Positions 1,535 through 16,519 of a stretch of DNA of 18,046 nt are shown piece by piece (within the stretch, counting starts at the first letter, position 1; each line of letters begins with the position of its first letter). A model generated the notes under the pieces. The model had not been told where the DNA came from, made no database searches, and worked only from the letters and a program-made list of their open reading frames with translations. The stretch lies in assembly GCA_944380625.1 (NCBI GenBank), contig CALWIE010000139.1, forward strand, positions 1-18,046, read 5' to 3'. This DNA comes from an uncultured Clostridia bacterium (GTDB lineage Bacteria > Bacillota_A > Clostridia > Oscillospirales > Acutalibacteraceae). The position numbers were made by a program, and so were the translations under genes.

Positions 1535-2540
1535 GACGGGTTGGGGGCTCTTGGGACTGGGGCTGCTGGTGCTGGTAAGCGCGGCCCTGGGGGCGGCAGC
1601 GGGCTCCACGACCATCGACCTGCCCGCCGCCCTCTCGGAGCTGCTGGCCGGCCGGGCCGCCTCCCCGGACGCCCGCATTTTGCTCCATGTGCGGCTGCCC
1701 CGGGTGTGCGCCAGCCTTCTGTGCGGGGCGGCTTTGGCGGTCAGCGGAATGCTCATCCAGGCGGTGCTCTCCAACCCCTTGGCCTCCCCCAACGTGATCG
1801 GCGTCAACGCCGGGGCGGGGTTTTCCACCTTTTTGGCATTGGCCCTGGTCCCGGGCTCGGCAGGGGCCGCCCCGGTGGGGGCCTTCCTGGGGGCGCTGTG
1901 CGCCACCCTCATCGTCTACGCCGTGGCGGCGGGGGCTGGGGCGGGAAAGCTCACCATCATCCTGGCAGGGGTGGCGGTATCCAGTGTGTTCACCGCGGGG
2001 ATCAACACGGTGAAGACCTTCTTCCCCGACACCCTCTACAACGGCAGCACCTTTTTGATCGGGGGATTTTCCGGGGTGGGCTTTTCGGACATCTCCCCGG
2101 CCTGGATGATGATCCTGCCCGCCCTTTTCCTCGCCTTCCTGCTGGCCCGCCCCACAGACGTGCTCTGCCTGGGGGAGGAGACCGCCCACAGCCTGGGCCT
2201 GCGGGTAAACGCCACCCGCTTCGGGCTGCTCCTCATCGCCTGCGTGCTGGCGGGGGCGGCGGTGAGCTTTTCCGGCCTTGTGAGCTTTGTGGGGCTTTTG
2301 TGCCCCCACATTGTCCGCAGGCTCTTCGGGGAGGGGCGCCACCGGGTGCTGCTGCCCGGAGCGGCCCTTTTGGGGGCCAGCTTTGTCACCCTGTGCGATT
2401 TGCTCAGCCGGGTGCTCTTCTCCCCCTACGAGATCCCCGTGGGGATCCTCCTGAGCTTTTTAGGGGGCCCCTTCTTCCTGTTTCTGATCATCCGGCAGCG
2501 GCGGCGCCCCGCCGGGAAAGGAGGCGCCCGCCATGGTTGA
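1524..2540 (+). CDS. FecCD/BtuC-family ABC transporter permease
   Basis: A 338-residue, very hydrophobic membrane protein with about nine to ten apparent transmembrane helices. Family landmarks are NPLASPNVIGVNAGAGF at residues 84-100, the cytoplasmic GEETAHSLG coupling segment near 217-225, and VSFVGLLCPHIVRRL at about 253-267, all characteristic of FecCD/BtuC permeases. The ATG at 1524 is preceded by GGAGG at 1513-1517 and lies inside the end of the binding-protein gene. The 3' end overlaps the ATPase start by 8 bp. Only one permease gene is present, so it should act as a homodimer carrying the substrate through the membrane, driven by the ATPase that follows. The ligand (siderophore iron, heme or cobalamin) cannot be told from the permease. 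Confidence 0.93.
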   Translation: MQGKTGWGLLGLGLLVLVSAALGAAAGSTTIDLPAALSELLAGRAASPDARILLHVRLPRVCASLLCGAALAVSGMLIQAVLSNPLASPNVIGVNAGAGFSTFLALALVPGSAGAAPVGAFLGALCATLIVYAVAAGAGAGKLTIILAGVAVSSVFTAGINTVKTFFPDTLYNGSTFLIGGFSGVGFSDISPAWMMILPALFLAFLLARPTDVLCLGEETAHSLGLRVNATRFGLLLIACVLAGAAVSFSGLVSFVGLLCPHIVRRLFGEGRHRVLLPGAALLGASFVTLCDLLSRVLFSPYEIPVGILLSFLGGPFFLFLIIRQRRRPAGKGGARHG

Positions 2541-3297
2541 GCTGAGACGCCTTACCGCCGGCTATCCGGGCCGCCCTGTGCTGCATGACGTGAGCCTCTC
2601 CTTCCCCCAGGGGCAGGTCACCGCCCTGATCGGCCCCAACGGCTGCGGCAAGACCACCCTTTTGCGGGCGGCCTGCGGGCTGCTGGCCCCCGCCTCGGGG
2701 CAGATCCTCTACGGGGGGCGGGAACTGCGCTCCTTTGGGCGCAAGGAATTCGCCCGGCTGGTATCCCTGCTGCCCCAGGTCCGGGACGTGCCTAACCTGC
2801 GGGCAGGGCAGCTGGTGGCCCACGGGCGGTATCCCCACCTGGGCTTTGGCCGGGAATTGGGAAAAGCCGACCGGGAGAAGATCGCCTGGGCCCTGGAGAA
2901 AACCGGCACCACCGCCCTTCGGGACAAGGAGCTCTCCCAGCTCTCTGGCGGGGAGCGCCAGCGGGTGTACCTGGCCATGACCCTGGCCCAGGACACCCAG
3001 GTCCTCTTTTTGGACGAGCCCACCACCTACCTGGATGTGGGCCAAAAACACGAGATGCTGGACCTGGTGCGCCAGGTGAACCGCCTGGGCAAAACCGTGG
3101 TGATGGTCCTCCACGACCTGGAGCTGGCCTTCTCCTACAGCCACCGGGTGGTGGTGCTGGAAGAGGGCAGGGTGGCCGCCCAGGGGGCGTCCCCAGCCGT
3201 TTTCGACAGCGGCGTCCCCGCCCAGGTGTTCGGGGTCAAATCCAAGGCCCTGGAGATCGACGGCCAAAGGGAATACCTCTTCTACCAGCGTCCGTGA
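2533..3297 (+). CDS. FepC-like ABC transporter ATP-binding protein (iron-chelate uptake)
   Basis: A 254-residue cytoplasmic ATPase that powers the preceding permease. All nucleotide-binding motifs are present: Walker A GPNGCGKTT (34-42), Q-loop around LLPQ (79-82), signature LSGGERQR (137-144), Walker B VLFLDEPT (157-164), D-loop YLDVGQ, and the switch histidine in VLHDLE (H194). The GRYPHLG segment at 98-104 is typical of FepC/FhuC/BtuD ATPases of iron-chelate importers. The ATG at 2533 overlaps the permease stop by 8 bp, so translation is probably coupled. No intrinsic terminator follows; instead the repeat element starts about 5 bp after the TGA stop. Family assignment is firm; the transported chelate is unknown. 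Confidence 0.95.
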   Translation: MVELRRLTAGYPGRPVLHDVSLSFPQGQVTALIGPNGCGKTTLLRAACGLLAPASGQILYGGRELRSFGRKEFARLVSLLPQVRDVPNLRAGQLVAHGRYPHLGFGRELGKADREKIAWALEKTGTTALRDKELSQLSGGERQRVYLAMTLAQDTQVLFLDEPTTYLDVGQKHEMLDLVRQVNRLGKTVVMVLHDLELAFSYSHRVVVLEEGRVAAQGASPAVFDSGVPAQVFGVKSKALEIDGQREYLFYQRP

Positions 3298-3301
3298 CCG
3301 C

Positions 3302-3918
3302 GGCGCGTGGCCGCGCAGGACTAGTCGCGCCGTCGCTCGTTCCACTCGCTCTCTACTGCGATTGGAAAACTCAGCAGCGCGGTTTTTGCTTTTTCTGTAA
3401 AACGGTAGTTTCCTACTCGCCGGAAGTTGGCGTAGTACGGGCCCGCGAACGCGCGCTGCCGACCCACACAGCCCGAGCGTAAGCGAGCGGCCCAAAGCGC
3501 GAATTGTCCAGCGGGGCCACCCGCCGCAGTTGTTGCTTTTCTGTAAAACGGCAGTTTCCTACCCGCCGCGAACGCGAGGATACTACTCACACAGCCCGAG
3601 CGTAAGCGAGCGGCCCAAAGCGCGAATTGTCCAGCGGGGCCACCCGCCGCAGTTTTTGCCTGTTCCGTAAAACGGTAGTTTTCTACTCGCCGGAAGTTGG
3701 CGTAGTACGGACCCGCGAACGCGCGGTTGCGACTTGCACAGAGCGGGCGCTAAGCCCGCCGCCCCAAGCGCGAATTGTCCAGCGGGGCCACCCGCCGCAG
3801 TTGTTGCCTTTTGCAAAACGGCAGTTTCCTACCCGCCGCGAACGCGAGGATACTACTCACACAGCCCGAGCGTAAGCGAGCGGCCCAAAGCGCGGCTCGT
3901 CCTGTGCGGCCACGCACC
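3302..3918. repeat. Repeat element with terminal inverted repeats, copy 1 (expanded, four units)
   Basis: This fills most of the 711-bp gap between the ABC ATPase and proC; no gene is supported in it. The left end (3302-3329) and the reverse complement of the right end (3891-3918) match at about 24 of 28 positions, with the shared core GCGTGGCCGC. Each end holds a small perfect hairpin: GCGCG-TGGC-CGCGC at 3303-3316 and GTGCG-GCCA-CGCAC at 3904-3917. Between them lies a flank (3330-3394) nearly identical to one at 16257-16319, then four related units. A shorter copy sits at 16229-16430. The element starts about 5 bp after a stop codon. No transposase or target-site duplication is visible, so a mobile origin (MITE-like) is inference; a structured extragenic repeat (REP/BIME-like) is the alternative. 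Confidence 0.82.
3395..3918. repeat. Four alternating repeat units (A-B-A'-B') inside element copy 1
   Basis: Units begin at the shared TAAAACGGYAGTTT block at about 3395, 3541, 3665 and 3812, giving spacings of 146, 124 and 147 bp. Units 1 and 3 share a GGAAGTTGGCGTAGTACGG insert that units 2 and 4 lack; units 2 and 4 instead share CGCGAGGATACTACTCACAC. The array is therefore a duplicated pair of about 270 bp, not four equal units. Units 1-3 end with a degenerate version of the element's right end, carrying the hairpin GCGGG-GCCA-CCCGC at 3511-3524, 3634-3647 and 3782-3795. Unit 4 ends in the true right end. The many short open frames here on both strands are repeats of one another and carry no recognisable domain. 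Confidence 0.82.
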
Positions 3919-3940
3919 CGCCAAAAGGCAAGGAGGCTTC

Positions 3941-4906: not shown

Positions 4907-6376
4907 ATGCTGAAAAATTGGATACGCCCAGAAAAACCCTCCGGGGAAGAGATGAAACAGCGCCTGAAGGCGGCCCAGGAGAAGCTGGAAATTCAGCAGA
5001 TGAAGCTCAAGGAGCGGAAGCTCCCGGTGCTGGTGCTCATCGAGGGCTGGGGCGCCGCCGGCAAGGGCAGCTCCATCGGCCAGATCATCAAGAACATCGA
5101 CCCCCGTTTCTTCAAGGTGTTCTCCATGCCCGCCCGCCCCTCGGAGGACGAGAGCCGCAAACCCTTTTTGTACCGCTTTTTCGAGAAGATCCCCGAGGCG
5201 GGCAAGTTCACCTTTTTGGACTCCGGCTGGATGAACCAGATCATGGAGGAGCGCCTGGCGGGAGAGCTGGACGACAAGGCCTACGGCCAGCGGGTGGACA
5301 GCGTCAAGCACTTTGAGCGCACCCTCACCGACAACGGCTACCTGGTGCTGAAGTTCTTCTTCCACATCAGCAAAAAAGAGCAGGAAAGCCGCATTGAAAA
5401 CCTCCTGGCGGACAAGGACACCGCCTGGCGGGTGAGCAAGGGGGACATTTGGCAGAACCGCCATTACGACAAGTGCCTGGACGCCTTCGACCGCTACCTG
5501 GACGACACCAACACCCCCAGCGCCCCCTGGTACATTGTGGACTCCAAGTCCAAAAAATTCGCGGAGCTCCAGGTGCTGGAGACCATGTGCGTGGGCATTG
5601 AGACCGCCTTGCACAACGAGAGCCTGGCAGTGCCCCTGCTGCAAAACGTCTTCCCCCTGGTGAAGATGCCCAAACTCAAGGACGTGCCCCTGGACAAGTC
5701 CATCCCCGAAGCGGAGTACAAGCAGCAGCTCAAAGAGCTTCAGGGAAAGCTGGGCCAGCTCCACAACCGGCTCTACCGCAAGCGGGTGCCCGTGGTCATC
5801 GTCTACGAAGGCTGGGACGCCGCCGGCAAGGGGGGCAACATCAAGCGGGTCACCGGCGCCCTGGACTCCCGGGGCTTTGAGGTGCACCCCATCGCCAGCC
5901 CCGAGCCCAAAGAGAAGGCCCGCCACTACCTGTGGCGCTTCTGGACCAGGCTGCCCAAGGACGGGCACATCGCTATTTTCGACCGCAGCTGGTACGGCCG
6001 CGTCATGGTGGAGCGGCTGGAGGGCTTCTGCTCGGAAAACGACTGGCAGCGGGCCTATTACGAGATGAACGAGTTTGAGCAGGAGCTCCACAACTGGGGC
6101 GCGGTCATCCTGAAGTTCTGGGTGCAGATCGACAAGGACACCCAGCTGGAGCGCTTTACCGACCGGCAGAACACCCCCGCAAAGCAGTGGAAGATCACCG
6201 ACGAGGACTGGCGCAACCGGGAGAAGTGGGACCAGTACGAGCAGGCCATCGACGAGATGCTGCAAAAGACCAGCACCACCTACGCCCCCTGGCACATCCT
6301 GGAGTCTGTGGACAAGAAGTACGCCCGCATCAAGGCGCTGCAAATCGTCATCGACGCCCTGGAAAAGGCCCTGTGA
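4907..6376 (+). CDS. pap: Polyphosphate:AMP phosphotransferase (two-domain PPK2)
   Basis: A 489-residue cytoplasmic protein made of two tandem PPK2 domains, the architecture of polyphosphate:AMP phosphotransferases, which use inorganic polyphosphate to convert AMP to ADP. The start at 4907 follows GAGGTGA (4894-4900). The N-terminal domain has Walker A GWGAAGKGSS (47-56), but its Walker B region reads LDSGWMN (104-110) in place of the canonical FDRSWYGR. The C-terminal domain is canonical: EGWDAAGKGG (301-310) and IFDRSWYGRVMVERL (357-371). Catalysis therefore most likely resides in the C-terminal half, as known for this class, with the first domain structural. A strong hairpin terminator follows the stop. 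AMP rather than ADP as acceptor is inferred from the two-domain form. Confidence 0.92.
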   Translation: MLKNWIRPEKPSGEEMKQRLKAAQEKLEIQQMKLKERKLPVLVLIEGWGAAGKGSSIGQIIKNIDPRFFKVFSMPARPSEDESRKPFLYRFFEKIPEAGKFTFLDSGWMNQIMEERLAGELDDKAYGQRVDSVKHFERTLTDNGYLVLKFFFHISKKEQESRIENLLADKDTAWRVSKGDIWQNRHYDKCLDAFDRYLDDTNTPSAPWYIVDSKSKKFAELQVLETMCVGIETALHNESLAVPLLQNVFPLVKMPKLKDVPLDKSIPEAEYKQQLKELQGKLGQLHNRLYRKRVPVVIVYEGWDAAGKGGNIKRVTGALDSRGFEVHPIASPEPKEKARHYLWRFWTRLPKDGHIAIFDRSWYGRVMVERLEGFCSENDWQRAYYEMNEFEQELHNWGAVILKFWVQIDKDTQLERFTDRQNTPAKQWKITDEDWRNREKWDQYEQAIDEMLQKTSTTYAPWHILESVDKKYARIKALQIVIDALEKAL

Positions 6377-10755: not shown

Positions 10756-12663
10756 TCACTCCAGCTCCAGGGCGCCGGTGTACAGCTGGTAATAGGTGCC
10801 GTGCTGGGCGATGAGCTGGTCGTGGGTGCCCCGCTCGATGATCCTGCCGTGGTCCAGCACCATGATGGCGTCGGAGTTCTACACGGTGGAGAGCCGGTGG
10901 GCAATGACGAACACGGTCCGGCCGGTCATCAGGGCGTCCATGCCCTTTTGGACAATGGCCTCGGTGTGGGTGTCGATGGAGGAGGTGGCCTCGTCCAAGA
11001 TCATCACCGGGGGGTCGGCCACAGCGGCCCGGGCGATGGACAGCAGCTGCCGCTGGCCCTGGGACAGGTTGGCCCCGTTGCCGGAAAGGGGCGTGTCATA
11101 GCCCTGGGGCAGCCGGGTGATGAAGTCGTGGGCCCCGGCCAGCTTGGCGGCAGCGACGCACTCCTCGTCGGTGGCGTCCAGGCGGCCGTAACGGATGTTG
11201 TCCATCACGGTACCGGTGAACAGGTTGGTGTCCTGCAGCACCATGCCCAAAGACCGCCGGAGGTCCGCCTTTTTGATCTTATTGATGTTGATGCCGTCGT
11301 AGCGGATTTTCCCGTCGGCGATGTCGTAGAAGCGGTTGATCAGGTTGGTGATGGTGGTCTTCCCCGCGCCGGTGGAGCCCACAAAGGCGATCTTCTGGCC
11401 GGGCTTGGCGTAGAGGCTGATGTTGTGCAGCACCATCTTGTCCGGGTTGTAGCCGAAGTCCACGTCGTCCAGGACCACTTCCCCCTGAAGTTTTGTATAG
11501 GTGACGGTGCCGTCCGCCTGGTGGGGATGCTTCCAGGCCCAGATGTTGGTGCGCTCCTGGCACTCGGTCAGGTTGCCGTCCTTGTCCTCCTTGGCGTTGA
11601 CCAGGGTGACATAGCCCTCGTCGGTTTCAGGCTTCTCGTCGATGAGGCTGAAGATCCGCTGGGTGCCGGCCATGCCCATGATGACCATGTTCAGCTGGTT
11701 GGACACCTGGCTGATGTTGCCGGAGAACTGCTTGGTCATGTTCAAAAAGGGCACCACAATGCTGATGCCGAAGGCCATGCCGGAAATGCTCAGGTTGGGG
11801 GCGCCGGTCATCATCAGGATGCCGGAGACGATGGCCACCACCACGTACAGCACGTTGCCGATGTTGTTCAAAATAGGCATGAGCATGTTGGCGTAGATAT
11901 TGGCCTGCTCCGCGTTGTGGAAGAGCTCGTCGTTGACCTTGTCAAAGTCCGCCTGAGCCTCTTTCTCGTGGCAGAAGACCTTGATGACCTTCTGGCCGTT
12001 CATCATCTCCTCCACCACGCCTTCGGTGGCGGCAATGGACTGCTGCATGCGGATGAAGTACTTAGAAGACCGGCCGCCCACCTTTTTGGTGACCAGCACC
12101 ATGAAGCACACGCCCAGCAGCACCACCAGGGTCATCCAGACGCTGAAGTAGAGCATGATGCCCAGCACCGTGAGGACGGTGACCGTGGAGATGATCAGCT
12201 GGGGAATGGACTGGGAGATCATCTGCCGCAGGGTGTCGATGTCGTTGGTGTAGTAGCTCATCACATCCCCGTGGTTGTGGGTGTCGAAGTACTTGATGGG
12301 AAGGTCCTGCATCCCGTTGAACATCTTCTCCCGCATCTTGGCCAGGGACCCCTGGGTGATGATGGCCATCAGCTGGTTGAAGAGGGCGCCCGCCGCCAGG
12401 CTGAGCACGTAGAGCACCACAAGGATCAGCACAAAGTGAAGGATCTGCCCCCCCACAGCGTCCCAATCGCCGCTTTTCCAGCTCTGCTCCACCAGGGAGA
12501 TCACATTCTGCATGAACACCGAGGGGATGGAGCTGATGATGGCGTTGAAGAGGATGCAGCACAGGGTCACCGGCAGCAGCACCGGGTAAAAGCTAAAGAG
12601 CATTTTGATCAGGCGCACCAGGATCGGGGCGCCCTTTGTGACAGAGGGCCTTTTCTCAGCCAT
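10756..12663 (-). CDS. ABC exporter half-transporter with canonical ATPase site, interrupted by an in-frame TAG
   Basis: A 635-codon gene for a multidrug-type half-transporter: six transmembrane helices (about 30-320), then an ATPase domain with Walker [10 protein letters not shown] (429-437), an unusual signature LSQGQ (533-537), Walker [10 protein letters not shown] with Glu558, and switch His589. Codon 595 is TAG (10881-10879), directly after AHRLSTV; the same frame then continues [17 protein letters not shown] and on to a TGA at 10756-10758, as expected for the family. Read as a stop, it removes 41 C-terminal residues but leaves all ATPase motifs. ATG 12663 is preferred to the in-frame GTG at 12672 for its spacing from AGG. 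It overlaps the partner gene by 8 bp. Whether TAG is a mutation, an error or a sense codon is open. Confidence 0.9.
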
Positions 12664-14416
12664 TTTCAGCACCTGCCTTTTCCTGAGAGTTCACGCGGTT
12701 CTGGGAGGTGTAGATCTCCCGGTAGGTCTGGCTCGAAGCCATCAGCTCCTCATGGTTGCCCATGGCCTCGATCTCCCCGTTTTTCATGAGGATGATCCGG
12801 TCGGCATCCTGGACGGAGGCCACCCGCTGGGCAATGATGATCTTAGTGGTCTCGGGGATAAACTTCCGGAAGCCCTGGCGGATCAGGGCGTCGGTGCGGG
12901 TGTCCACCGCGCTGGTGGAGTCGTCCAGGATGAGGATTTTCGGCTTTTTCAGCAGGGCCCGGGCAATGCACAGCCGCTGCTTCTGCCCGCCGGACACGTT
13001 GGTGCCCCCCTGCTCGATGTAGGTGTCGTACTTCTGGGGGAACTGCTGGATGAACTCGTCCGCCTGGGAGAGGCGGCAGGCCTCCTCCAGCTCCTCGTCG
13101 GTGGCGTTGGGGTTGCCCCAGCGCAGGTTGTCCTTGATGGTGCCGGAGAACAGCTCGTTCTTTTGCAGCACCACGGCCACCTGGTTCCGGAGGGTCTCCA
13201 GGTCGTAGTCCCGCACGTCCACGCCGCCCACCTTCACGGCGCCCTCGGTGGCGTCGTACAGCCGGGGGATCAGCTGGATCAGAGAGGTTTTCGAAGAGCC
13301 CGTGCCCCCCAATATGCCCACGATCTCCCCGCTTTTTATATGCAGGTCAATGTTCGACAGGGCGTTGCGGCTGGCCTTTTTGGAGTATTTAAAGTTTACG
13401 TGGTCGAAGTCGATGGAGCCGTCCTTGACCTCCATAACCGGGTTCTCCGGGTTTTGCAGGGTGCTCTCTTCAGACAGCACCTCCACAATCCGCTCGGCGG
13501 ACTCCAGGGACATGGTGACCATGACAAAGATCATGGAGACCATCATCAGGCTCATGAGGATCTGGAAGGAATAGGTGAGCAGAGAGCTCATCTGGCCCAC
13601 ATCCAGGTCCAGGCCCTGGCTGGTGATGACGGTGTAGGAGCCAAAGGCCATGACGAAGATCATCACCACGTAGATGCAAAACTGCATCAGGGGGTTGTTC
13701 AGGGCCAGGATGCGCTCGGCCTTTGTAAAGTCCTTCTGGACGTCCTCGGCGGCAAAGTCAAACTTCTTCTTCTCGTAGTCCTCCCGGACATAGGCCTTCA
13801 CCACCCGCATGCCCCGGATGTTCTCCTGGACAGAGGCGTTTAAGGCGTCGTACTTGCGGAACACCCGGCGGAACAGGGGCATGGTCTTCCGGGTGACGAA
13901 AAACAGCCCAATGCCCAAAACCGGAATGGTAAAAAGGAAGATGAAGGCCATCTTCCCGCCCATGACAAAACCCATCACAAAGGAGAAGATGAGCATTAAA
14001 GGGCTGCGCACCGCAGTGCGGATGATCATCATGTAGGCCATCTGCACGTTGGTGATGTCCGTGGTCAGCCGGGTGACCAGGCTGGAGACGGAAAACTTGT
14101 CGATGTTCTCAAAGGAGTAGCCCTGGATCTTGTAGAACATGTCCTTGCGCAGGTTGCGGCCAAAACCGCAGCTGGCGGTGGAGCAGGCCTTGCCCGCCAG
14201 GGCGCCAAAGGCCAGGGAGAGCCCTGCCATCAGCACCAAAACGCCGCCGTAGCCCAGCAGCGTGGGCAGGGCGATGCCCGCCTTGATCTCGTTGACCAGG
14301 TTGGCGATGATAAAGGGGATGATGCACTCCATGACCACCTCCCCCGTGACGAATACAGGAGCCAAAATCGAAGGCTTTTTGTACTCCCGTATGCTTTTCG
14401 CCAGAGTTCTAATCAT
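12656..14416 (-). CDS. ABC exporter half-transporter with degenerate ATPase site (partner subunit)
   Basis: A 586-residue half-transporter, first gene of the exporter operon. ATG 14416 follows AGGAAGG at good spacing, and the protein begins MIRTLAKSIREYKKPS. Six transmembrane helices occupy about 15-310. In the ATPase domain Walker A is GGTGSSKT (370-377), the signature VSGGQ (474-478) is canonical, but Walker B reads ILILDDST with Asp499 where catalytic Glu is usual, and the switch histidine is Gln530 (IIIAQR). These are the hallmarks of the inactive site in heterodimeric exporters such as TM287/288, BmrCD and LmrCD. The partner has the catalytic Glu and His but a non-standard LSQGQ signature, which faces this degenerate site. 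Substrates, probably drugs or lipids, are not known. Confidence 0.94.
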   Translation of the reverse strand: MIRTLAKSIREYKKPSILAPVFVTGEVVMECIIPFIIANLVNEIKAGIALPTLLGYGGVLVLMAGLSLAFGALAGKACSTASCGFGRNLRKDMFYKIQGYSFENIDKFSVSSLVTRLTTDITNVQMAYMMIIRTAVRSPLMLIFSFVMGFVMGGKMAFIFLFTIPVLGIGLFFVTRKTMPLFRRVFRKYDALNASVQENIRGMRVVKAYVREDYEKKKFDFAAEDVQKDFTKAERILALNNPLMQFCIYVVMIFVMAFGSYTVITSQGLDLDVGQMSSLLTYSFQILMSLMMVSMIFVMVTMSLESAERIVEVLSEESTLQNPENPVMEVKDGSIDFDHVNFKYSKKASRNALSNIDLHIKSGEIVGILGGTGSSKTSLIQLIPRLYDATEGAVKVGGVDVRDYDLETLRNQVAVVLQKNELFSGTIKDNLRWGNPNATDEELEEACRLSQADEFIQQFPQKYDTYIEQGGTNVSGGQKQRLCIARALLKKPKILILDDSTSAVDTRTDALIRQGFRKFIPETTKIIIAQRVASVQDADRIILMKNGEIEAMGNHEELMASSQTYREIYTSQNRVNSQEKAGAENG

Positions 14417-14789: not shown

Positions 14790-14820
14790 CGTCCTTTTCC
14801 CGCTTTCAGGAGGTATGGCC

Positions 14821-16209
14821 ATGGAAGACGCCCAAAAGACCAAACTGTTTGAAACAATGCCCATCCCCCGGGCGGTGATGAAGCTGGCTGTCCCCACGGT
14901 GCTCAGCTCCCTGGTGATGGTCCTTTACAACCTGGCGGACACCTATTTTGTGGGCATGCTCAACAACGCCGTGCAAAACGCCGCCGTCACCCTGGCCGCC
15001 CCCCTGCTACTGGCCTTCAACGCTGTGAACAACCTCTTCGGGGTGGGCTCCTCCAGCATGATGAGCCGGGCCCTGGGCAGCAAGGATTACGACACCGTCT
15101 ACCGCAGCTCTGCCTTTGGCTTTTACTGCTCGGTGATCGCCGGCCTGGTGTTTTCCCTGGCCTACACCCTGTTCCAGACCCCCCTGCTGACCCTGTTGGG
15201 GGCCAACGACGAGACCATGGCCGCCACCGTGGGCTACGCCCGCTGGACGGTGACCTTCGGGGCGGTGCCCTCCATCTTAAACGTGGTGATGGCCTACCTG
15301 GTCCGGGCGGAGGGCTCCGCCATGCACGCCAGCATCGGCACCATGAGCGGCTGCTTTTTGAACATTGTGCTGGACCCGGTCTTCATCCTGCCCTGGGGCC
15401 TCAACATGGGCGCCGAGGGGGCGGGCCTTGCCACCTTCCTCTCCAACTGTTGCGCCTGCCTGTACTTCTTTGTGCTCCTCTACATCAAGCGGGGGCGCAC
15501 CTACGTGTGCGTCAACCCCAAGATGTTCTCCTTTAAGAAGAAGATCGTCCTGGGGGTCTGCGCCGTGGGGATCCCGGCCTCTATCCAGAACCTTTTGAAC
15601 GTCACCGGCATGAGCGTTCTGAACAACTTCACCGCCTCCTTTGGCTCCAGCGCCGTGGCCGCCATGGGCATCGCCCAAAAGATCAACTCCGTCACGGTCC
15701 AGATCGCCCTGGGCCTCTCCCAAGGCATCATGCCCCTGGTCAGCTACAACTACGCCAGCGGCAATGTGAAGCGCCTGAAGAAAGCCTTCTTCTTCACCGC
15801 CCGCATCGCCATGGTGTTCCTGGTCCTTATGCTGGCTGTCTACTACGTGGGCGCCCAGCTGTGGGTGAGCCTGTTTATGCAGGACCAGCAGATCATCGCC
15901 TATGGCGCCAGCTTCCTGCGGGGCTTCTGCCTGGGCATGCCTTTTATGGCCATCGACTTCCTGGCGGTGGGCGTGTTCCAGGCCTGCGGCCTGGGGAAGA
16001 ACGCCTTCCTCTTCGCTGTGCTGCGCAAGGTGGTGTTGGAGATCCCCGCCCTGTTTATCCTCAACGCCCTGTTCCCCCTCTACGGCCTGGCCTACGCCCA
16101 GTGCACCACCGAGGTGGTCCTCTGCGCTGCGGCGGTGATCGTCCTGGCCCGGCTCTTCCGCAAGCTGGAGCGCCGTTACCAGAAAAAAGAAGAACTCCCC
16201 AGGCCGTGA
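14821..16209 (+). CDS. MATE family multidrug/Na+-H+ antiporter
   Basis: A 462-residue membrane protein with about twelve helices in two six-helix halves, the length and pattern of MATE (NorM/DinF/MepA-like) exporters. Landmarks are PIPRAVMKLAVPTVLSSLVMVLYN near the start (two-part landmark, residues 12 onward), NLADTYFVGM shortly after, and the second-half motif ALGLSQGIMPLVSYNYASGN. It is expected to export cationic compounds using an ion gradient. ATG 14821 is preferred to ATG 14815 because AGGAGG (14808-14813) is 7 bp from the former and only 1 bp from the latter. Expression is probably limited by the terminator in its leader. It is divergent from the ABC exporter operon, so two efflux systems share one control region. 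After its TGA the second repeat element begins within about 20 bp. Confidence 0.93.
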   Translation: MEDAQKTKLFETMPIPRAVMKLAVPTVLSSLVMVLYNLADTYFVGMLNNAVQNAAVTLAAPLLLAFNAVNNLFGVGSSSMMSRALGSKDYDTVYRSSAFGFYCSVIAGLVFSLAYTLFQTPLLTLLGANDETMAATVGYARWTVTFGAVPSILNVVMAYLVRAEGSAMHASIGTMSGCFLNIVLDPVFILPWGLNMGAEGAGLATFLSNCCACLYFFVLLYIKRGRTYVCVNPKMFSFKKKIVLGVCAVGIPASIQNLLNVTGMSVLNNFTASFGSSAVAAMGIAQKINSVTVQIALGLSQGIMPLVSYNYASGNVKRLKKAFFFTARIAMVFLVLMLAVYYVGAQLWVSLFMQDQQIIAYGASFLRGFCLGMPFMAIDFLAVGVFQACGLGKNAFLFAVLRKVVLEIPALFILNALFPLYGLAYAQCTTEVVLCAAAVIVLARLFRKLERRYQKKEELPRP

Positions 16210-16228
16210 CCGGCCGGGACGAGCCGCA

Positions 16229-16430
16229 GGCGCGTGGCCGCGCGGGACTAGTCGCGCTGTCGCTCGTTCCACTCGCTCTCTAGAGTGGATGGCTAGAGCA
16301 GCGGCGCGGTTTTTGCTTTTTCTGTAAAACGGCAGTTTCCCACCCGCCGCGAACGTGAGGGTGCTATTCGCACAGGCGCGGCGCTAAGCCGCCGCCCCAC
16401 AGCGCGAACCGTCCTGTGCGGCCACGCACC
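16229..16430. repeat. Repeat element with terminal inverted repeats, copy 2 (single unit)
   Basis: About 200 bp with the same left end (16229-16256), flank and internal TAAAACGGCAGTTTCC block as the element at 3302-3918, and the same right end (16403-16430, reverse complement matching the left). Hairpins are GCGCG-TGGC-CGCGC at 16230-16243 and GTGCG-GCCA-CGCAC at 16416-16429. Only one internal unit is present, so this is the minimal form; the length difference of 415 bp equals the three extra units of copy 1. A second, weaker right end follows at 16443-16470 (hairpin loop GTCA). A partial end-like piece, GGGACGAGCCGC, precedes the left end at 16217-16228. No gene is supported here. Confidence 0.82.
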
Positions 16431-16483
16431 CGCAGGCAAGAAGGCGGCTTGTCCTGTGCGGTCACGCACCGGGCCGTGGGACA

Positions 16484-16519
16484 AAGATCCCCCAGGCTGA
16501 AACCAGCCTGGGGGATCTT
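16484..16519. terminator. Strong 16-bp hairpin, probable terminator of the pyrophosphatase gene
   Basis: AAGATCCCCCAGGCTG (16484-16499) pairs perfectly with 16504-16519 around AAAC. On the minus strand it ends in CTTTGT, a short T-run, about 115 bp after the pyrophosphatase stop. On the plus strand it could stop MATE read-through. I see no gene or other clear feature between 16520 and 16634. Confidence 0.65.

Follow-up and report, generated by a model that had tools for sequence, protein, structure and literature searches.

Tagged REPs, which PMC3733652 defines and sorts into the GTAG and CGTC superfamilies, are described in the portions of that paper available to us as palindromes of 20–40 nt with an unpaired tag on one side, alternative complementary residues in the stem and short loops. 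They lie mostly behind genes, single, paired or clustered, and GTAG termini often give the flanking gene its TAG stop; the words Firmicutes and Clostrid are absent from the main text as available. In the accessible parts of PMC12306157 (RepRanger), REPs are predicted in many genomes, as palindromes near stop codons, and E. coli REPs at most 15 nt from the stop are reported to stall ribosomes. A table in those parts lists predicted REPs in three Bacillota genomes, so that REP-like repeats as such have precedents in this phylum, and the same parts hold no clostridial family with the tag and loop described below. A REP transposase, according to the available part of PMC8266576, uses the tag and the palindrome of the single-stranded REP.

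Here, we analysed an 18,046-nt stretch of DNA from an uncultured Clostridia bacterium (the window) together with genomes of its relatives. We computed from them a family of short hairpins, the PUs, the covariation of their stems, their docking and orientation at stop codons, and their presence or absence at orthologous gene ends. Genomes (G), contigs (C) and loci (L) bear our own numbers.

The repeat copies of the window and their hairpin unit

Two loci of the window carry the same repeat, as the first-pass annotation had proposed: positions 3302–3422 and 16229–16349 are direct repeats of 121 nt with 87% identity, and a shared 110-nt block recurs at 3416, 3539, 3809 and 16320 (74, 100, 91 and 63% identity, respectively). 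The inverted-repeat ends seen in copy 1 were also confirmed, with 3302–3329 matching the reverse complement of 3891–3918 at 24 of 28 positions. The idea of one element bounded by this pair did not hold, since its two ends are one hairpin, the PU, which is also found alone, in internal positions and in direct tandem arrays. What stands is thus a dispersed repeat family whose unit is smaller than the element first drawn.

Copy 1 (3298–3922) is a stack of units with five PUs, the left one inverted and four direct ones spaced 122–148 nt, as delimited by alignment and by the covariance model R1, and not one two-ended element. It follows the stop codon TGA (3295–3297, plus strand) of an ABC-ATPase gene (2533–3297; domain match to PF00005). 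The model edge of PU 1 (3298–3335, minus strand; stem GCGCG/CGCGC; R1, 51.0 bits) is the first base past this stop, and its canonical stem starts 6 nt past it. PUs 2, 3 and 4 (3492–3529, 3615–3652 and 3763–3800, all on the plus strand; tandem pattern and R1) share the stem GCGGG/CCCGC, and PU 5 (3885–3922, plus strand; GTGCG/CGCAC; R1, 54.5 bits) forms the right end of the copy.

Copy 2 (~16197–16474) consists of a single internal block flanked by four PUs, two inverted and two direct, three of them found by the covariance model and the fourth by pattern. The latter, PU a (16197–16234, minus strand; GGCCG/CGGCC), which R1 did not recover at E ≤ 0.001, overlaps the stop codon TGA (16207–16209, plus strand) of a MATE gene (14815–16209; PF01554), the stop lying within the TGAC loop of this inverted PU. 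PU b (16225–16262, minus strand; GCGCG/CGCGC), PU c (16397–16434) and PU d (16437–16474), the last two on the plus strand with the stem GTGCG/CGCAC, all match R1. A perfect 14-bp inverted repeat followed by TT (16486–16519), terminator-like by sequence reading and with its pairing checked, is kept 3′ of the copy. The folding of copy 1 (3298–3922; z −4.66) is better than that of every one of 20 dinucleotide shuffles, and the folding of copy 2 (16205–16474; z −6.47) better than every one of 200; note that each copy folds as one long rod because the inverted PUs at its two ends pair. The ORFs within the repeat, which appear only in the mechanical ORF list, were rejected as genes.

The PU core spans ~22–25 nt and comprises an unpaired tag TGNCC, one base, and a 5-bp stem with a GNCA loop. 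In gene sense, the unit reads as a hairpin GNNNG-TGNC-CNNNC, one base and GGNCAAG, followed either by a second hairpin, of type A (49-nt tandem period) or type B (periods of ~57–148 nt), or directly by the next PU (25 nt). GTCC adjoins the stem in the window PUs; with the second tag base left free, full-stem matches carry mainly GTCC, GGCC or GCCC, these searches required G-N-CC and would not have detected a different class of tag.

We examined stem covariation in the window and 26 loci from relatives with a search anchored on the tag GTCC and the loop GYCA only, which returned 107 matches. With a GCG flank, 66 of 69 matches pair at all three free stem positions, 65 of these 66 being fully Watson–Crick, and seven fully Watson–Crick stem types occur. 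Complementarity at all three positions is found in 15 of the 38 matches that lack the flank; we read 11 of these as tandem PUs and the other 4 as chance matches. In a set of 35 non-redundant PUs, whose selection fixed the tag, most of the loop and both closing pairs, all 175 cells pair, including 105 of 105 for the three free pairs. Both partners of the pair are changed in 32 cells, compared with 8.8 in shuffles (none of 500 shuffles reached this number), while controls slid along the sequence give 17–65% pairing. Judged by sequence comparison, this covariation shows a structure that is maintained, by selection or by hairpin-templated repair, which could also account for the perfect stems; it does not distinguish the DNA from the RNA level.

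Orientation is largely uniform, as 28 of the 30 multi-PU clusters run one way and only the two window copies are mixed. Paired inverted ends are peculiar to the window copies, and the gain at gapA described below amounts to one PU.

In G175 (L253–L259), and also at L274 of G168, the tag base and a loop base covary, producing an overlapping palindrome TGNCC-N5-GGNCA. It is present in 31 of the 33 full-stem matches of G175 (17 G-C and 14 C-G), in 2 of 22 in G160, in none of 56 in G001 and in none of the window's nine; being confined mainly to G175, it is not a family feature.

Position of the hairpin relative to stop codons

Genes were called with a home-made codon-score caller in 64 loci that had been fetched for their PUs (coding fraction 0.78). 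We used 143 of the 147 model matches, leaving out two matches at L112 that repeat matches of L111, and a partial match found in both loci. These 143 PUs form 80 clusters, of which 37 lie between tandem genes, 19 between convergent and 7 between divergent genes, with 9 called genic and 8 at locus edges.

Counting gene-sense hairpins with their tag within 150 nt, and taking offset 1 as the first base after the stop, we observed that the hairpin starts at offsets 0 to 4, i.e. from the last stop base to the fourth base after it, at 17 of 44 gene ends. At four more, including the MATE gene of window copy 2, the stop TGA lies inside the hairpin loop, and at the other 23 the hairpin sits at +14 to +116. 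At some of these distal ends a further PU-like hairpin, missed by the tag pattern, is present at the stop, and some of the distal hairpins are probably there by chance. The 17 docked hairpins comprise 10 canonical PUs, five related ones with a TGC loop and two with an alternative pairing (window copy 1 and L123), whose canonical stems start 6 and 8 nt past the stop, respectively. In the opposite orientation, none of 12 gene ends is docked, the nearest PU being at +17. At 219 tagless gene ends, hairpin starts at bases 1–4 total 7 and the peak lies at bases 7–10; the 65 gene ends with a tag give 24 hairpin starts in bases 1–4 (starts, not ends, are counted here).

Docked ends use all three stop codons, and by eye no longer motif common to the sequences before the docked hairpin was seen. 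The 20 docked-gene proteins that we scanned are unrelated, with CysS, MetG, FeoB, MnmE, GapA, NrdR, HydG, LarB, AraD, ROK, MATE and ABC proteins among them. In clear cases (gapA and window copy 2) the PU lies ahead of the terminator; with its body against the stop, the hairpin would there be transcribed first after the stop codon. The PU array 3′ of an ABC gene in G001 sits after the terminator, not before it. PUs also lie within the last codons of genes (AraD of G001, PotD of G160, and CysS).

At L243 (G001:C5), the 13 C-terminal residues of AraD are read from two PUs; AraD of six relatives ends 2–4 residues past the same NAYYGQ. Another repeated block, TTTCTTGAAAGAAAGCTTGGCAAAGAACTTT, borders PU arrays at L112, L115, L120 and L124 of G001 and, at L112 and L124 at least, supplies a called gene end with its TGA. 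A 5′ placement shared by two species was observed at L233 (G160) and L245 (G001): the same gene, which by eye we take to be carboxynorspermidine-synthase-like, has a PU immediately before its ribosome-binding site in both genomes; the labels proC and agmatinase are likewise our assumptions, given by eye. A polyamine riboswitch was suspected from the PotB-like, PotD-like, presumed agmatinase and presumed carboxynorspermidine-synthase-like genes adjoining PUs, and was dropped because the docked genes are of many unrelated kinds.

Relatives with and without the hairpin

Relatives were reached through one window protein, presumably of the DUF2961 kind, with matches that include Neglecta, Neglectibacter and Acutalibacter. 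A DNA search with copy 1 gave 46 matches in G001, 8 in G002, one each in G004 and G005 and none in four other genomes; it gave matches in 9 of 29 genus genomes and, with up to three candidates scored per genome, in 3 of 150 family genomes (G001, plus G092 and G149 with a single short match apiece). Scanning the 29 related genomes with model R1 (up to 150 candidates scored per genome), we found 9 to 74 PUs in each of eight: 74 in G001, 57 in G175, 33 in G004, 26 in G005, 25 in G160, 17 in G002, 11 in G174 and 9 in G168. G157 has one marginal match (E 0.0048), and 20 of the 29 have no PU at E ≤ 0.01. These counts are probably low because no fewer than five PUs sit 130 nt or less from a contig end (G001 C54; G002 C11; G160 C61, C100 and C188). 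The expectation of many copies per genome thus holds in the relatives, most clearly in G001. An order-level R1 search over 295 genomes, with up to 22 candidates scored per genome and stricter filters, gave one weak match each in 11 genomes besides G001 (best E 7e-5), and the other seven PU genomes are all absent from the matching set; note that it gave 25 matches in G001 against 74 otherwise, so that weak families can be missed at this level.

In a tree of 27 rows built on the protein of 4907–6376, which we take to be a polyphosphate kinase, the window stands beside G001 (93% identity, support 100/98) within a set of eight rows (98/96) that comprises the window, G001, G160, G168, G002, G169, G004 and G005, and G174 and G175 form a separate pair. 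G169 has DNA matches and a docked unit 3′ of PotB, yet no R1 match. Within the genomes searched, the PU family is restricted to a clade.

Presence and absence at orthologous sites of relatives, which had also been predicted, were found. At the site of copy 1, the gap 3′ of the ABC gene lacks the element in G001 and G168, and another gene is there in G002, G160 and G169; model R1 found no PU in these five orthologous loci. For copy 2, the MATE orthologs of G160, G001, G004 and G005 have no PU behind them and have other neighbours. The reverse case is an ABC gene (10879–12672 in the window) that is followed by a PU array in G001 but not in the window. Two side observations concern these sites: 3′ of the MATE gene at L224 (G005), a different tandem repeat of 96–97 nt period lies where the window has copy 2, and the window's ABC transporter gene at 10879–12672 (minus strand) has an in-frame stop followed by 40 more homologous codons, with an intact copy in G001.

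We then compared 12 genes, chosen because one ortholog carried a docked unit, and judged presence by eye. The unit is present in 1 of 7 genomes for MetG, LarB, NrdR, DUF362 and AraD, 2 of 7 for PotB-like, 2 of 6 for GapA and PotD-like, 3 of 7 for HydG (two more genomes with a variant hairpin are uncounted), 3 of 6 for MnmE, 4 of 6 for CysS and 2 of 2 for FeoB. A docked or related unit is thus found at 23 of 75 orthologous ends, or at 11 of 63 once the 12 starting genes are subtracted. FeoB in five genomes, MnmE in G169 and CysS in G160 do not enter the comparison, their match being partial or absent; GapA and PotD of G005 (contig ends) and further MetG-like matches of G004 are excluded, NrdR of G002 has only 55 nt visible 3′, and PotB of G168 is counted as not docked. 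Directly behind MetG and NrdR of G160 the unit carries a TGC loop; that of FeoB in G001 begins with a broken hairpin.

The same C-terminal end is found with and without the unit for MetG, MnmE, GapA, HydG, LarB and PotB-like. In four unit-free genomes 31 or 32 nt separate the gapA stop from the terminator arm, compared with 57 in G001 and 143 in G004; the 25–26 extra bases of G001 are a single PU. Some docked loci (CysS, and HydG with its two variants) look inherited. The stem seen at the HydG end of G160 (L262) is split at this site in G001 (L123), where another PU stem interrupts it. We saw no insertion between close strains; because the relatives differ by ~11–29% at the genes compared, PU junctions and any target duplications are not base-precise.

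Explanations and known systems

Three candidates for a common mover were rejected, as their distributions do not track the PUs. The Y1 family of REP transposases (RAYTs; PF01797) is found in 1 of 8 PU genomes (G160) versus 8 of 21 others, with no match in G001, G002, G004 or G005, although these genomes may be incomplete; reverse transcriptase (PF00078) is in none of the nine genomes formed by G169 and the eight PU genomes (12 of 29 overall); and IS110 (PF01548) exceeds the cut-off in 4 of these 9 and in 12 of 29 overall. A phage or plasmid origin was also rejected: the repeat has no match in phage and plasmid collections, and the exact 19-nt core was not found in the viral contigs of IMG/VR. 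Rfam gave no match at gathering score in the window and, at E ≤ 1, two matches in four loci, both below gathering score and neither at PUs, on which grounds we rejected a known RNA family. Together with the open-licence literature searched, where the family was not found, these searches agree with the first impression that no named family applies.

In our view, the PU repeats are probably a REP/BIME-like mosaic family of non-coding palindromic repeats. PUs and their partner hairpins make up units that pile head to tail, with periods of 25 and 49 nt or of ~57–148 nt; in the window PUs also face each other, hence the inverted ends. We infer mobility, a moving factor and an effect on gene expression: the PUs would be non-autonomous DNA, spread by a factor that recognises the tag and loop of the single-stranded hairpin, for which the REP transposase (PMC8266576, in its available part) is the model, and a docked PU may modulate expression at termination, by analogy with what is reported for E. 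coli REPs no further than 15 nt from the stop.

We give some chance, if a small one, to a mobile hairpin of ~22–25 nt that targets the stop codon itself. It would insert directly behind TAA, TAG or TGA, hairpin first, by means of a factor that is neither Y1 nor reverse transcriptase, and would provide uniform structured mRNA ends acting on terminating ribosomes across a gut clade.

A cis-regulatory 3′-UTR RNA, selected at particular genes, rarely copied, and acting on termination, decay or ribosome release, is an unlikely alternative reading. Stop-codon docking, the orientation lock and stem covariation would all be expected of it, as would the placement before the terminator at gapA and copy 2 and the orthologous retention at CysS, HydG and PotB. 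However, the docked genes are unrelated, five of the 12 gene ends have the unit in a single genome of seven and three more (GapA, PotB, PotD) in two of six or seven, copy number varies from 9 to 74 between relatives, and no Rfam match at gathering score was obtained in the window or in the four loci.

The picture first drawn from the window, a MITE derived from an IS by deletion, bounded by terminal inverted repeats and moved by a DDE transposase, appears distinctly improbable. The window copies do show inverted ends (24 of 28) and enclose no known gene, and intergenic sites do differ between species, but the end unit is also found on its own, within the element and in direct arrays, inversion is absent from 28 of 30 multi-PU clusters, and the net gain of 25–26 nt at gapA is that of one PU. 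A known tagged REP moved by a Y1 RAYT is very improbable: the short palindrome, unpaired tag, compensated stems and location behind genes are those described in the available portions of PMC3733652, but the tag is not GTAG, and the Y1 domain is found in one PU genome of eight, with the caveat of completeness given above. Finally, hairpins that arise and are perfected without mobility, through template switching of the polymerase and unequal recombination where intergenic DNA is GC-rich, would suit the tandem arrays and the G001 stem set into the stem seen in G160 at HydG, but can practically be dismissed, as they leave unexplained the same tag, loop and orientation behind unrelated genes and the clustering of PU genomes on the tree.

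A REP/BIME-like family of this kind bears on how REP families without RAYTs spread. Described here is a clade-restricted Bacillota family with compensated stems and orientation-locked docking at stops, in which gene ends occur with and without the hairpin. If the reading is true, these paired ends would be a natural experiment on how a hairpin after the stop affects termination, and PU-rich and PU-free sister species would offer a route to the mover.

Like bacterial MITEs and BOX elements, the PU family is intergenic, non-coding, and modular or inverted-ended; unlike a MITE, it has no fixed terminal inverted repeats, its end unit being also internal, single or in tandem. Compared with the E. 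coli REPs near stops described in the available part of PMC12306157, docked PU hairpins begin no more than about four bases from the stop, in one orientation only. With BIMEs and REPINs, as the consulted parts of PMC2817692 and PMC3116915 present them, the family shares several PUs close together and, in the window copies, opposite orientations. Unlike them, seven of the eight PU genomes have no Y1 match and all 28 multi-PU clusters outside the window run one way; mixed orientation, to be set beside the alternating PUs of BIMEs, is seen in 2 of 30, both in the window.

As in REPs, the PU is a short palindrome in many copies, mostly extragenic, with an unpaired tag on one side of the stem and alternative complementary stems. 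Unlike the tagged REPs in the available portions of PMC3733652, it combines a TGNCC tag, a 5-bp stem closed by G-C, a GNCA loop and partner hairpins. It differs from GTAG REPs, which go with a Y1 RAYT, in lacking the GTAG tetranucleotide (in searches anchored on G-N-CC) and in the single Y1-bearing genome among eight possibly incomplete ones. As to the tag of CGTC REPs (CGTC or TGTC), TGTC or CGTC is present in many PUs, although G175 has mainly TGGC or TGCC; the CGTC REP has, in the same portions, a stem of 8–9 bp beginning with two A-T pairs, a loop of 4–5 and a tail CCA, as against the 5-bp stem closed by G-C of the PU. Overall, and as far as these portions describe the two named superfamilies, the PU family is of the tagged-REP kind but fits neither GTAG nor CGTC.
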